Shown: in pieces, positions 15,183-35,598 of the stretch
Position numbering within the stretch: position 1 is the first letter of the stretch
Layout: every line of letters begins with the position of its first letter
Assembly: GCA_022842785.1 (NCBI GenBank)
Contig: JALHOW010000007.1
Span: 1 to 64,000 of the forward strand
Reading direction: 5' to 3'
Source: Hyphomicrobiaceae bacterium
GTDB taxonomy: Bacteria > Pseudomonadota > Alphaproteobacteria > Rhizobiales > Hyphomicrobiaceae
Length of the DNA stretch: 64,000 bases
Notes under the pieces: generated by a model
Database searches by the model: none
What the model saw: only the letters and a program-made list of their open reading frames with translations
What the model was told of the DNA's origin: nothing
Position numbers and translations under genes: made by a program

Positions 15183-15622
15183 GATAAAATGACTTTCCTG
15201 GCTCAATGAAAAACCATTGATGCCTCCTCGAAATCTGATCACGCCGCATGATCAATAATATTCGTAAACGTCCCAACTGGCGGAATCAAGGCCTGTTCAA
15301 TTGCGCTGCGGCGCAGGAGATTTGCCAAAATGCACGGGATCCGGGCGGTGGCCGCCACAGGAATTGGTAACTGATGCCGCGACCAGGATGCCGGCCCCGA
15401 GGTTGACACCGGCCCCGGCTTCGCTCAATAAGGCGCCATCGCAAGCAGGCCCTGGAAACCAGAGCCACCGGTTTGCACGGGTCGCGACCTCCACGGGTGC
15501 GCGGCGGAGGCAGATGCGGTCAACGTCCGTCAGCGAAGGTTCGCTCACGGGCGCGTTTGTGTTTGGCGTGCGCGGGTGCGGTCGGCGGGGTGCGGATTGG
15601 CCAGCGACAAGGAAGTGTAGCG
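15183..15622. other. 440-bp divergent intergenic region with a four-codon upstream ORF
   Basis: The space between the bactofilin and GST genes has an AT-rich patch at about 15245-15270 suited to promoters. On the minus strand a strong GAGGAGG is followed by ATG-GTT-TTT-CAT-TGA (15217-15203), a Met-Val-Phe-His minimal reading frame 21 bases before the bactofilin ATG and out of frame with it. The rest (15290-15600) is GC-rich with no credible gene. Confidence 0.4.
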
Positions 15623-30305: not shown

Positions 30306-30320
30306 TTGCAGGAGACGGCG

Positions 30321-31853
30321 GTGTTCAAGCTCATTAAATCAGCCTCGGGTGTTTTGGCCCGCGCCTGCGCTCGTTTTTCAGGAAAGCCCTTTTCCAGCGA
30401 CGAGCGTGGCTCAGTCGTTATCATGTTTGGCCTCGCGGCGCTCGTGGTCTTCACGCTCGTGGGCGCGGCCGTGGACTATGGTCGGACCATTCTCGCGCGT
30501 GAGCGATTGCAGGCGACCGTAGACAGCGCAGTGCTTGCGGCTGCACGCGTGTGGCAGATCGAGCAAGACATGGACCTCGCCGAGAAAAAGGCGATCGCCT
30601 ACTTCGACGCGATGAAGCCGGAAGGCGTGAATGCGCGCCTCACGTCGCTCGCGCCCGACACCGATATGAATACGATCACGGCGGAAGCCAGTGCCGAGGT
30701 CAAGGTCCCGTTTCTCAGTCTCGTGCTGAACGGTGAGCCGATGAGAGTTGGCACGCGAGCCCAAGCCACATTCTGCGTCGGCTGCCGCAGTGGCGATAAC
30801 GGCGGCGGTAACAATGATGGATACAGCGTCGAGGTCGCCATGATGCTGGACGTCACCGGCTCGATGGCGGGCAGCAAGATCGCCGACCTGAAAGAGGCCG
30901 CGAAGGATCTCGTCAAAATCCTCGTTTGGGACGACCAGAGCGAGTACACGTCGCGCGTTGCGGTGGTGCCGTTCTCGCACGCGGTGAATGCCGGATCTGT
31001 GTTTGGTCCCGTTGTCGCTCACAATCCAGCTTCGAGCCTGGCATTCAACTTCCGCGACGGCAAAGAAAGGACTTGGTATCGGACGAACGCTTACTGTGTC
31101 TCCGAGCGTGGGGGCACGAACGCCTATACCGACGTGACGCCGCTTAGCAACGATCGCTTGCCGCGAGTGTACTACGGAAGCTCCAGCACCAGCAATTGCC
31201 AGCCGACCACGGCGGTGATGCCGCTGACGAATGACAAGACCCTCCTGAACAATACGATCAATGGGCTGGTTGCGTCTGGTTGGACGGGTGGCAACCTCGG
31301 CACATCGTGGGCCTGGTACATGCTCTCTCCGCGCTGGTGGAAAGACATGCCCGCGAACGTCTACCCCGCGCGGCGTCCTTTGGGCGAGACACCGACGCTT
31401 TCGGCGGACTGCAAGCGTACCGACAAGGTGTGCGCGGAGCCTCCGTCATATGAGGGCGTCAAGAAGTACGCCATCCTGATGACGGACGGTGAGTACAACA
31501 TGCAGTTCTGCAATGGTTCGAAGAACGGCACGACGGGCGCCTCGATCCCGGATCGCAACTCGGGTCCCGGCAACGCGGAGAAGGGCAACTGCACGTCGGC
31601 GCTTGGCAGCTCGAATACGCAGGCGTTGGCGTTGTGCACGGGGATGAAGAACTCGGGCATCACCGTCTACACGGTCGGCTTCGGGCTTGGTACGTCGGGA
31701 ACACAGGTGGATATGCTGAGGGCCTGCGCTTCGAGCGACGGCCACTTCAGCAAGCCCGGCAAGCTCTTCTACAACACACAGACAGGTGACGAGCTTCGCA
31801 ACGCTTTCCGCCACATCGCATCTTCGATCTCCCGTATTACCCTCCGCGAGTAG
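30321..31853 (+). CDS. TadG-like pilus assembly protein with VWA domain, copy 1
   Basis: 510 residues from a GTG at 30321 with GGAGA five bases upstream; a TTG at 30306 is less likely. An N-terminal TadE/TadG region, DERGSVVIMFGLAALVVFTL, ends in one membrane helix followed by AVDYGRTILARERLQATVDS. A von Willebrand A domain begins at about residue 170 with MLDVTGSMAGSK, the MIDAS variant D-x-T-G-S. Paired Cys residues (CVGC; others near 285 and 375) suggest disulfides outside the membrane. Related proteins act with Flp/Tad pili or envelope adhesion, but no other tad genes are nearby. It has its own terminator and a paralogue directly downstream. Confidence 0.82.
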   Translation: MFKLIKSASGVLARACARFSGKPFSSDERGSVVIMFGLAALVVFTLVGAAVDYGRTILARERLQATVDSAVLAAARVWQIEQDMDLAEKKAIAYFDAMKPEGVNARLTSLAPDTDMNTITAEASAEVKVPFLSLVLNGEPMRVGTRAQATFCVGCRSGDNGGGNNDGYSVEVAMMLDVTGSMAGSKIADLKEAAKDLVKILVWDDQSEYTSRVAVVPFSHAVNAGSVFGPVVAHNPASSLAFNFRDGKERTWYRTNAYCVSERGGTNAYTDVTPLSNDRLPRVYYGSSSTSNCQPTTAVMPLTNDKTLLNNTINGLVASGWTGGNLGTSWAWYMLSPRWWKDMPANVYPARRPLGETPTLSADCKRTDKVCAEPPSYEGVKKYAILMTDGEYNMQFCNGSKNGTTGASIPDRNSGPGNAEKGNCTSALGSSNTQALALCTGMKNSGITVYTVGFGLGTSGTQVDMLRACASSDGHFSKPGKLFYNTQTGDELRNAFRHIASSISRITLRE

Positions 31854-31871
31854 ACCGTTCTATCGACACAG

Positions 31872-31903
31872 AAAGGAGCGTCTCAACGGCGCTCCTTTTT
31901 CTT
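31872..31903 (+). terminator. intrinsic terminator after TadG-like copy 1
   Basis: AAGGAGCG, a short loop, then CGCTCCTT followed by TTTCTTTT: a perfect 8-bp stem and U tract 19 bases after the stop. Confidence 0.85.
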
Positions 31904-32098
31904 TTGTGTATTGGGTTTCGGGCAACGGAGTATGGCGGACGAAAATGAAACGCCGCTTTTATGTATTATTTACTCAGATGCGACGATTTGAATAAACGAG
32001 AAAATTGCAGATAATTGTCCGGGATCAGATTAGGGGAAAATCAATGGCGGACCTCTATTTGTGATCGTACGGGGCGAATCCTGTGAGAGGTATGCGTC

Positions 32099-33523
32099 AT
32101 GTTCGGCGTTTGGCGGGCTAATCGGATGCAGCGGGCGGCAGCCCCGTTGTGCGGACTGGTGAAGAACGACCGCGGTTCGGTCGCCATCATGTTCGGTCTA
32201 ACAATTTTTGTCTTGTTCACGATTGTCGGAAGCGCCGTGGATTATGGGCGCGCGATGCTCGCACGTGCGCGGCTGCAGGCTGCGGTCGACAGCTCGGTTC
32301 TGGCAGCGGCACGCGTCTGGCAGCTCGAGAACAGTCTCGATCTCGCCGAGGAAAAAGCGCTCGCCCACTTCGACTCGAACAAGCCGACAGAGCCCTCGCG
32401 AGTGGTCGAATTCACGCCCAACATGGTGGATTCGACCTTCACGATGGTTGGCGAGACCGTAGTCCGCACACCCTTCCTGAGCTTCGTCAATCATCCCACC
32501 ATCACGGTCGCGACGCGCGGACAGGCTCTCATTGCCGGCGGTGGCAATGCAGGCACGAACCTCGAGGTCTCGCTGATGCTCGACGTCACGGGCTCGATGG
32601 CGGGCACCAAGATCGAGGATCTGAAGTCGGCTGCGAAGGATCTGATCGACATCGTCGTCTGGGCCGATCAGGCCGAGTTCACCTCGCGTGTGGCTCTGGC
32701 GCCGTTCTCGACCGCCGTCAACGCCGGCGCGCTCGGGCCGTCAGTAGCCTACAATCCGACGTCGAGCCTTTCGTTCAAGCAGCGGAGTGGAGGTAATTCC
32801 ACGCGCCATCGCACGAGCACGTACTGCGTGTCTGAGCGGACTGGAGCGGCCGCGTTCACCGACGCAGCTCCGACAGGCAACGACCGCATCCCGCGCGCCT
32901 ATCAGACGAGCAGCTCTACGGCGTGCATCCCCTCTGCCCCCATCGTTCCGATGACGAGCAACAAGGATACGCTCAAGACGGTCGTCAATGGCTTTACGGC
33001 AAATGGCATGACGGCTGGTCACCTCGGCACCGCGTGGGCCTGGTATCTGTTGTCGCCGAACTGGGCGAATGTGCTTCCTGAGGGGAGTAAGCCGCAGCCC
33101 TATGCCATGCTCCAGCAGGTCGGCGAGAAGGGGCAGCCGCTGCTCAAGAAGGTGGCCGTGCTGATGACGGACGGCGAATACAATCAGCAGTACTGCAACA
33201 GCACGACCGGCGGCACGGCGGGCGCCACCATCCCTGATTACGACACGGGCACGTCCGGTGCGAACTGCAAGGCGCCGAACGGTACGTCGACCAAGCAGGC
33301 GCGCGACATGTGCAAGGCAATGAACGACGCAGGGATCACCGTCTACACCGTCGGCTTCGATCTGCCGGAGCCGAAGGGTGGCAAGGACGCTGACTCGGTC
33401 GTCACGCTGCGCGGCTGCGCCAGCGAGCCTCACATGTTCTACAACACGAAGACGGGCGACGAGTTGCGCAACGCCTTCCGGCACATTGCCACCGCGATCG
33501 CCGCGCCAATCCTCTCGCGCTGA
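32099..33523 (+). CDS. TadG-like pilus assembly protein with VWA domain, copy 2
   Basis: 474 residues, clearly paralogous to the gene at 30321. It has the same plan: NDRGSVAIMFGLTIFVLFTI with one membrane helix, AVDYGRAMLARARLQAAVDS, a VWA domain starting MLDVTGSMAGTKIEDLKSAA, the shared NDRIPRAYQTSSST region, KVAVLMTDGEYNQQYC and an end matching FYNTKTGDELRNAFRHIA. The middle linkers differ most. GAGAGG precedes the ATG by ten bases. It has its own terminator, so the two copies are separately expressed though adjacent. Confidence 0.82.
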   Translation: MFGVWRANRMQRAAAPLCGLVKNDRGSVAIMFGLTIFVLFTIVGSAVDYGRAMLARARLQAAVDSSVLAAARVWQLENSLDLAEEKALAHFDSNKPTEPSRVVEFTPNMVDSTFTMVGETVVRTPFLSFVNHPTITVATRGQALIAGGGNAGTNLEVSLMLDVTGSMAGTKIEDLKSAAKDLIDIVVWADQAEFTSRVALAPFSTAVNAGALGPSVAYNPTSSLSFKQRSGGNSTRHRTSTYCVSERTGAAAFTDAAPTGNDRIPRAYQTSSSTACIPSAPIVPMTSNKDTLKTVVNGFTANGMTAGHLGTAWAWYLLSPNWANVLPEGSKPQPYAMLQQVGEKGQPLLKKVAVLMTDGEYNQQYCNSTTGGTAGATIPDYDTGTSGANCKAPNGTSTKQARDMCKAMNDAGITVYTVGFDLPEPKGGKDADSVVTLRGCASEPHMFYNTKTGDELRNAFRHIATAIAAPILSR

Positions 33524-34141: not shown

Positions 34142-34417
34142 ATGAGCCTGACGTTCGGGCTGGCCCTTTACTTCATCATCTGGTGGACGGTGCTCTTCGC
34201 CGTGCTGCCCTTCGGCGTGCGCACGCAAGGCGAGGCGGGTGAGGTCGTGCCCGGCACGCCCGCGAGCGCGCCAGTTGCGCCTCGCCTACTCAGGAGTTTC
34301 GCCATCACGACGGTCGTCGCGGGCGGTGTGTTTGCGCTTGTTTATGCGGTTCTGGCGGGCGGGATCGTCGATATCGGCGCGTACTTCCCGAATCCGATGC
34401 CGCCAGGTGCGCGCTGA
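34142..34417 (+). CDS. DUF1467 membrane protein
   Basis: 91 residues from an ATG at 34142 with AAGGAA upstream. Two membrane segments (FGLALYFIIWWTVLFAVLPFGV and ITTVVAGGVFALVYAVLAGG) flank a short loop with RTQGEAGEVVPGTPASAP, the DUF1467 hallmark (GVRTQ...PGTP.SAP). Widespread in Alphaproteobacteria, function unknown. Divergent from the thioredoxin-fold gene. Confidence 0.85.
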   Translation: MSLTFGLALYFIIWWTVLFAVLPFGVRTQGEAGEVVPGTPASAPVAPRLLRSFAITTVVAGGVFALVYAVLAGGIVDIGAYFPNPMPPGAR

Positions 34418-34438
34418 GGTGCGCCAGCGTCCGCGCAC

Positions 34439-34466
34439 AAAAAAAGCAAGGCTGGGAGCCCTGCTT
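34439..34466 (-). terminator. strong minus-strand intrinsic terminator
   Basis: On the minus strand AAGCAGGGCT, loop CCC, AGCCTTGCTT is a ten-pair stem (one G-U) followed by a seven-base T run. There is no minus-strand protein gene to its right within 1.4 kb, so it must end a non-coding transcript, and it sits just after the structured element at 34472-34606. Confidence 0.8.
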
Positions 34467-34606
34467 TCCTGAAGTCCAGTAACGAGGCGGATTGACGGAC
34501 CGCCCTATTGCTAAGCCATTCCCACTAGCGACCGCTTGGGTCGCACACTCGGCTTACACGATCCTCTGTGCCGGGACCGTTGATCCGCCGCCTGCTCCCT
34601 AGACTT
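34439..34606 (-). ncRNA. structured RNA candidate, 6S-like
   Basis: Minus-strand RNA of about 165 bases. Nested helices are: closing stem 34599-34606 with 34472-34479 (eight pairs, one G-U); a stem 34577-34589 with 34486-34498 (11 of 13 pairs, symmetric CA/CA internal loop); a large central bubble (13 and 20 bases); a stem 34551-34556 with 34512-34517; and an apical hairpin 34539-34544 with 34528-34533 (loop five bases). The rod with one big central bubble is the architecture of 6S RNA, which mimics an open promoter and holds sigma-70 RNA polymerase. An intrinsic terminator follows directly. No clear promoter is seen upstream, and 6S identity rests on shape rather than recalled sequence. DUF1467 and SDR genes flank it on the opposite strand. 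Confidence 0.5.
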
Positions 34607-34839
34607 GGGCGATGCGAAGACCTCAGACGTGGTCTCACGGCCCTTTTTTCGTACGCGGGTGTGACACTAGCTCATATGCGACGTCTTGTCAGCCCTTGAA
34701 TGCGCTTGATCCAAGATCGCTCAACGATCGGGTTTTGCAGGACTTTTGCGCCGCAGCATCGGTTTGTGCCATAGGTGATGATGGCCAAACCGGGGCCGCC
34801 GACAGGGCGCCAGCCGCGAGCTTTGGCCGGGAGGAGACG

Positions 34840-35598
34840 ATGGCACAAACAAACGCCGCCGAACGAAAAACCCTGATCCTGACCGGGGCCTCGCGCGGTA
34901 TCGGCCATGCGACCGTCAAGCGCTTCGCGTCGGCTGGCTGGCGGGTCATCACCTGCTCGCGTCACCCCTTTCCTGAAAACTGCCCTTGGGAAATGGGGCC
35001 GGAGGATCACATCCAGGTCGATCTCGCCGATGCCGAGGATACTGCGCGTGCGATCGCCGAAATGCGCCTGCGCCTTGCGGATCAGCGCGGGCATCTGAAC
35101 GCGCTCGTCAACAATGCCGGCATCAGTCCAAAGGGTTCTGCCGGTGTGCGTCTCGGTACGCTCGAGACGCCGCTCGAGGATTGGCAACGCGTGTTCCAGG
35201 TGAACTTCTTCGCACCCGTGCTGCTCGCGCGCGGACTACTTGCGGAGCTCGAGCGCGCAAAGGGCGCTGTCGTCAACGTGACATCGATTGCGGGAAGCCG
35301 TGTGCATCCATTTGCAGGCGCGGCCTATGCGACGTCGAAGTCGGCACTTGCGGGACTGACGCGCGAGATGGCGACGGACTTTGGTGCACGCGGTGTTCGC
35401 GTGAATGCGATTTCACCGGGAGAGATCGACACGTCGATCCTGTCGCCCGGTACCGAGCGCATCGTCAACGAGCAGATTCCGATGCGCCGTCTCGGCGAGC
35501 CCGAGGAAGTCGCCAAGGCGATCTATTTCCTCTGCACGGATCAGTCGAGCTACGTGAACGGCGCCGAGCTGCACATCAACGGCGGGCAGCATGTTTAG
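34840..35598 (+). CDS. short-chain dehydrogenase/reductase
   Basis: 252 residues from an ATG at 34840 with GGGAGGAG upstream. TGASRGIG (15-22) binds NAD(P); NNAG (91-94), S149, Y163 and K167 (YATSK) complete the classical SDR catalytic set, and ISPGEIDTSIL is the PG motif. The end NGAELHINGGQHV is typical. It oxidises an alcohol or reduces a ketone; the substrate is unknown. The frame is open back to 34612 but that leader crosses the RNA candidate's upstream region and is not family-like. Confidence 0.88.
   Translation: MAQTNAAERKTLILTGASRGIGHATVKRFASAGWRVITCSRHPFPENCPWEMGPEDHIQVDLADAEDTARAIAEMRLRLADQRGHLNALVNNAGISPKGSAGVRLGTLETPLEDWQRVFQVNFFAPVLLARGLLAELERAKGAVVNVTSIAGSRVHPFAGAAYATSKSALAGLTREMATDFGARGVRVNAISPGEIDTSILSPGTERIVNEQIPMRRLGEPEEVAKAIYFLCTDQSSYVNGAELHINGGQHV

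Follow-up and report, generated by a model that had tools for sequence, protein, structure and literature searches.

A predicted ar9-like small RNA with a conserved block complementary to ar8 (suhB/MmgR) in a Hyphomicrobiaceae genome

ar9, known since 2007, is an Hfq-binding sRNA conserved in Hyphomicrobiales, and MmgR/suhB (ar8) has roles in carbon storage in Sinorhizobium and in carbon starvation in Caulobacter. In rhizobia ar9 has been detected by Northern blotting and coprecipitated with Hfq, and no established function for it was found in the open-access literature searched. Published reports give the ar9 promoter as gaTGAC-n17-CTA.AT, with Northern bands in three genera and with fliM and smc01800 as predicted targets of sra32 (PMC2245857), and they place SmrC9 of S. 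meliloti next to proS (PMC2780559, PMC3927594), its other neighbor, SMc01933, reportedly being oriented as the sRNA. SmrC9 is described as binding Hfq and as most abundant in log phase (PMC2848018), and MmgR as Hfq-dependent and building up as cells enter stationary phase in minimal medium (PMC7143759), a timing that would suit antagonism between the two RNAs. An experimentally supported sponge of ar8 is described in Caulobacter crescentus, where CrfA uses a G/A-rich stem loop (residues 49-63) to pair with the core of ar8 sRNAs, reducing ar8 and releasing its targets (PMC12559287). No statement that ar9 pairs with ar8 was found in the open-access literature searched.

Predicted gene between DUF1467 and SDR genes

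The window, a 64,000-nt stretch of a Hyphomicrobiaceae genome (contig JALHOW010000007.1, positions 1 to 64,000), likely carries a real sRNA gene on the minus strand of the intergenic region between a DUF1467 gene and an SDR gene (Table 1). The anatomy of the gene could be read directly from the DNA: a σ70-like promoter (CTGACA-17-TAGTGT) precedes a conserved block and an intrinsic terminator, and the positions of promoter and terminator predict a transcript of ~218 nt, in which the block begins ~47 nt from the RNA start. We infer that this transcript is made in the window organism. Its start was placed from the distance between the -35 box and the published 5' end of sra32 (PMC2245857), set against the A. 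vitis copy (L279). The initial annotation had put the 5' boundary at 34606, which is probably wrong: conservation within the genus runs on upstream over a hairpin and the promoter, so that the RNA should start near 34656. The promoter spacer was also conserved in part of the family (GTGACAGANGGCCGC; L026, L033, L041 and others), suggestive of a regulator site overlapping the -35/-10 region.

Table 1. Features of the predicted sRNA gene and its neighbors, by position in the window
Feature	Position	Strand	Basis or remark
Predicted ar9-like sRNA, ~218 nt	34439..34656	-	Predicted start; end at the last T of the terminator
-35 box CTGACA	34687..34692	-	TGACA in 26/26 block-carrying family loci, 67-85 nt upstream of the block
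-10 box TAGTGT, 17-nt spacer	34664..34669	-	Invariant T-A columns in family alignment
5' hairpin GGGC...GCCC, before and into the block	34607..34643	-	Fold of the longer transcript and 4-copy alignment
Conserved block GCCCAAGUCUAGGGAG, predicted ar8 (suhB/MmgR) binding site	34595..34610	-	Family conservation and ar8 complementarity
CUGGACUU, partner of the block in the predicted free fold (closing helix)	34472..34479	-	MFE; 7/8 pairs in all 4 genus copies
Rho-independent terminator GCAGGGC-UCCCA-GCCUUGC-U7	34439..34464	-	Conserved in genus
DUF1467 gene, convergent neighbor, synteny anchor	34142..34417	+	Pfam PF07330, 99.4 bits
SDR gene, other flank, outside the RNA	34840..35598	+	Pfam adh_short_C2, 179.5 bits

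The minus strand of 34439-34606 folded with a minimum free energy (MFE) of -75.4 kcal/mol, compared with a mean of -58.6 (SD 3.9) for dinucleotide shuffles (z = -4.3), and none of 200 shuffles did as well. The eight-pair closing helix (AAGUCUAG/CUGGACUU), the long inner stem and the strong terminator hairpin with seven T that had been noticed by the initial annotation were all present in the MFE structure, and the block was mostly paired in the predicted free fold of the RNA. Covariation in relatives, which the initial annotation had named as a check, did not exceed chance in the four same-genus copies: pairing is kept in 91.3% of cells of the proposed fold and both sides had changed in 2 of its 61 pairs, but 89 of 500 shuffles reached that number, so that with this few sequences covariation gives no real support. 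RNAalifold on the 26 block-carrying family loci yielded only a 3-pair mini-hairpin, because the 5' hairpin differs among them in sequence and place.

Relation to ar9 and distribution among relatives

By sequence comparison, the minus strand likely encodes a diverged relative of ar9 (RF02343; SmrC9/sra32 of Sinorhizobium, also SmelC289). The window copy scored 24.4 bits against RF02343, largely from its terminator, and as this is below the cut-off of 45 we use the name ar9-like for it and make no assignment to RF02343. At the place and on the strand of the block, ar9 was found above the cut-off in Allorhizobium (L265, 125 bits), A. vitis (L279, 118 bits) and Labrenzia (L227, 49.3 bits), and below it in L015 (41.4 bits), L218 (41.2 bits) and L224 (37.1 bits). 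The terminated minus-strand RNA of another structured kind, for which the initial annotation had also left room, fits this link to ar9 through related loci. Six of the first ten loci scanned with Rfam, all from other families and either found beside DUF1467 or by our first model, R1, contained ar9, and the other four had no match at E <= 0.5; nine of ten loci in a second set from other families had none at that level either, the exception being L236 (44.0 bits). Twenty loci from the genus and family of the window gave no ar9 match at E <= 1, and RF02343 matched 1 of 385 searched across the class at E <= 0.001, with none above cut-off, and 0 of 14 named control genomes, among them Caulobacter vibrioides. 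Model R2, built solely from the window's family, matched two loci at the place of ar9, the RF02343-positive L227 (E = 4.7e-4) and L224 (E = 0.007), which lies below the RF02343 cut-off, and had no match at E <= 0.1 in L279 and L265, the two strongest ar9 copies. An R2 match in L236 was dropped as a link to ar9, since it did not overlap the ar9 match there.

Gene order in A. vitis (L279) is DUF1467, ar9 on the other strand, and proS; the window RNA likewise stands beside DUF1467 on the opposite strand, but its other neighbor is the SDR gene where A. vitis has proS. With ar9 in A. vitis, Allorhizobium and Labrenzia it shares the DUF1467 side, the strand, a TGACA-17-TA promoter and a GUCUNGGGAG block, and the ar9 set of TGAC-n17-CTA, block and intrinsic terminator recurs in the window as CTGACA-17-TAGTGT, GUCUAGGGAG and U7. 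Similar terminators of the CAAGG..CCUUG type occur in A. vitis and Allorhizobium. Unlike ar9, the window RNA is predicted to be longer (~218 versus 149 nt) and to pair fully with ar8 through its block, whereas other members mostly have one mismatch. The window copy suggests that the Rfam ar9 model stops short of the real range of the family.

Conservation was evident within the genus and family. A blastn search recovered copies from three of the genus's four other genomes and from none of 55 further genomes, and promoter, block and terminator were all conserved in an alignment of the four genus copies. A distant blastn search against plasmids gave no match, and the DUF1467 protein had no relative among viral contigs. 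DUF1467 was matched in 55 of 60 genomes drawn from the family; the block lay beside it, reading toward it, in 26 of these 55 loci, the window's own genome included (at most three substitutions from the 15-nt GCCCAAGTCTAGGGA), and promoter and 15-nt block (GCCCAAGUCUAGGGA) recurred together there in 26 of 55, with the -10 TA invariant. Two family loci whose best block had four substitutions (G020, G063) fall outside this count, and a contig end cuts through one of the 55 (G001), where the block could not be judged. A downstream terminator was present in 10 of the 26 under a strict exact-stem rule, by which the window's own terminator went uncounted because of a G-U pair in its stem; similar GCAAGG..CCTTGC terminators were seen in relatives. 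The block was located elsewhere in two genomes that had none beside DUF1467 (G075, G028). An exact 11-mer (GTCTAGGGAGC) matched 21 of 99 family genomes, indistinguishable from a reversed-pattern control.

A looser rule (at most four substitutions with TGACA upstream, or at most two without TGACA) held in 46 of 80 named DUF1467 loci, the best 80 of 247 relatives, and its members there included Filomicrobium, Bosea, Chelatococcus, Labrenzia, Microvirga, Allorhizobium and Agrobacterium vitis; among the same best 80, the locus was present in H. sulfonivorans and H. zavarzinii (Hyphomicrobium). The spacing from the end of the five-base TGACA to the -10 TA was exactly 17 nt in 66 of 77 compiled loci, some species being counted under two handles (e.g., G067/G504 and G034/G506); two loci had no such promoter in range, and nine gave another or no value, the script having taken an earlier TGAC in several of the nine. 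Across the order, R1 matched 16 of 297 genomes at E <= 0.01, several through the terminator only, and R2 matched 69 of 397 at E <= 0.001, a mix of true members and antisense ar8 (21 loci read). Model R3 matched 72 of 385 across the class at E <= 0.01; many of the 30 loci read by eye were antisense to an ar8, for which reason we claim no ar9 count outside Hyphomicrobiales, and RF00519 (ar8) was found at E <= 0.1 in 11 of 20 R3 loci scanned.

Complementarity to ar8 and competing explanations

What is new is that the conserved block reads as the reverse complement of the core of ar8 (suhB/MmgR, SisA-D), its proposed partner. Our main reading, to which we assign a probability of roughly 70%, is that the window RNA is a diverged Hyphomicrobium homologue of ar9 that acts as a sponge of ar8 in the manner of CrfA, both pairing and function being predicted. 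A housekeeping-type promoter would drive the RNA, an intrinsic terminator would end it, and the RNA would present its purine-rich block, GCCCAAGUCUAGGGAG, for base-pairing, probably on Hfq, with the CUCCCUAGACUUGGGC core of ar8 (suhB/MmgR/Sis), which is also the part bound by CrfA. We infer that such pairing takes place in the cell and would cover the anti-Shine-Dalgarno seed of ar8, the direction and effect of regulation being, as for CrfA in Caulobacter, that the mRNA targets of ar8 are freed.

The proposed partner was scored above cut-off in 57 of 60 family genomes and in 44 of 46 of a second, partly overlapping set, and the window genome has three such copies (G000:C9:78579-78656, G000:C5:374197-374273 and G000:C5:132117-132188; labeled a, b and c below, in no stated order). 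Several relatives had two or three ar8 copies spaced no more than a few hundred bases apart. Complementarity over the 16-nt block is exact for two of the window genome's own three copies and includes one G-U pair for copy c. Every one of the 21 substitutions seen in the family's blocks, which represent six distinct changes, was A>G or C>T, versus 124 of 602 in the flanks, a control compared ungapped and hence noisy; as these are the only changes that keep pairing (G-U) with an unchanged ar8, all family block changes keep the pairing. Changes in ar8 were compensated in Allorhizobium (G476, two), Labrenzia (G478, two), G495, Microvirga (G496), Roseibium (G479, probably the same event as one in G476/G478) and one of three copies in G075. 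One ar8 change was uncompensated (G052), mismatches were retained in G475 and G496, and ar8 insertions broke the ungapped register in G136, G356, G303 and G233. When ar8 was swapped among genomes, 0 of 5000 permutations reached the native pairing over 58 distinct pairs, a difference that disappeared with 23 non-redundant pairs (see below).

Predicted complexes gained 13.7-29.0 kcal/mol over the separate folds in eight pairs from seven genomes, between 0 and 4 of 60 shuffles doing as well. The window RNA gained 15.6 and 13.7 kcal/mol with copies a and c (0 and 4 of 60 shuffles as good), copy b not being part of this set of eight, and the longest single helix beat all 60 shuffles in three of the eight pairs, namely the two window pairs and G504. 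With RNAduplex, 0, 8 and 18 of 500 shuffles were as good as the window RNA paired with copies a, b and c, respectively.

The best-surviving alternative, which we consider unlikely, is that an ar9-like sRNA pairs mainly with mRNAs and owes its match to ar8 to a shared Shine-Dalgarno-like GGGAGG, with no sponge role. This motif does resemble a ribosome site, and mRNA targets of ar9 have been predicted (PMC2245857), but complementarity to ar8 extends past GGGAGG into AAGUCU, GCCC and often GCGG, with 19.07 of 22 columns pairing on average over the 58 distinct ar9/ar8 pairs (from 71 of 77 genomes, six block-carrying genomes for which no ar8 core had been retrieved being left out). A central mismatch opposite the U of ar8, present in 30 of the 58 and outside the family mostly T or C, suits the mRNA-pairing explanation, yet there are compensated changes outside the GGGAGG motif. 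The same explanation also draws on the permutation over 23 non-redundant pairs, which was not significant (2710 of 10000 as high), a comparison in which relatedness and a near-invariant ar8 leave little power.

A functional product of the plus strand, namely a degenerate ar8 (suhB-like) copy ending at TTTTTT (34644-34649), seems very improbable. Positions 34575-34658 do carry CUCCCUAGACUU-GGGC...GCCCUUUUUU, but score only 14.5 bits against RF00519, far under its cut-off of 41, and ar8 would there lie on the strand opposite to the predicted RNA. A comparable T-run (A4+ before G3+ on the minus strand) occurs in 11 of the 26 family loci and is missing in 15, whereas the minus-strand TGACA is found in all 26; the block substitutions preserve pairing for a minus-strand RNA, and the RNA detected by Northern blotting in rhizobia is ar9, on the corresponding strand in A. 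vitis.

The 6S RNA originally proposed for this locus, or a second 6S paralogue mimicking an open promoter to bind RNA polymerase, is scarcely credible and was rejected: the window RNA shares with 6S an elongated predicted fold, with a long MFE structure, closing helix and terminator, but RF00013 had no match at its gathering score (46.4 bits) in the whole window nor up to E = 10 in 34380-34860, the conserved part is a linear block complementary to ar8, the genuine 6S of this genome lies on a different contig (G000:C11:51217-51379, L001 1501-1663; 62 bits, E = 1.4e-11), and the large central bubble of 6S between two long helices, described for this locus with 13 and 20 bases, is absent both from the MFE, with its branched interior, and from the different, likewise branched, fold that RNAalifold gave for the four copies.

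Comparison with CrfA and minor observations

For the sponge reading, CrfA is a comparison of how the RNAs may work and not of descent; CrfA was tested in vivo, and the window RNA is known from sequence. A direct partner makes the function of ar9 testable, and if the reading is true, control of MmgR/suhB would be a two-RNA switch conserved well beyond Caulobacter. A broader proposal, on which we are evenly divided, is that the ar9 lineage is a dedicated sponge that coevolved with ar8 across Hyphomicrobiales and may derive from the antisense of an ar8 copy, CrfA being one case of a class-wide design of ar8 antagonists. The 3' half of ar8, when reverse-complemented, resembles the 5' hairpin and block of the window RNA.

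Seven loci outside Hyphomicrobiales (L354, L355, L360, L362, L364, L367 and L368) were ar8-like on one strand and, by eye, had a TGAC-17-TA-like promoter and a terminator-like hairpin on the antisense strand. The five of these that were scanned scored 35-41 bits against RF00519, just under the cut-off of 41, and all seven are possibly antisense or mirror copies of ar8.

Elsewhere in the window, the only Rfam match at gathering level was an ffh sRNA (RF01793) at 15509-15561 on the plus strand (44.5 bits). Two adjacent similar ORFs of 515 and 474 aa, also on the plus strand (30306-33523), resemble TadE/TadG-type proteins whose middle part is von Willebrand-like, an impression gained from their translations.
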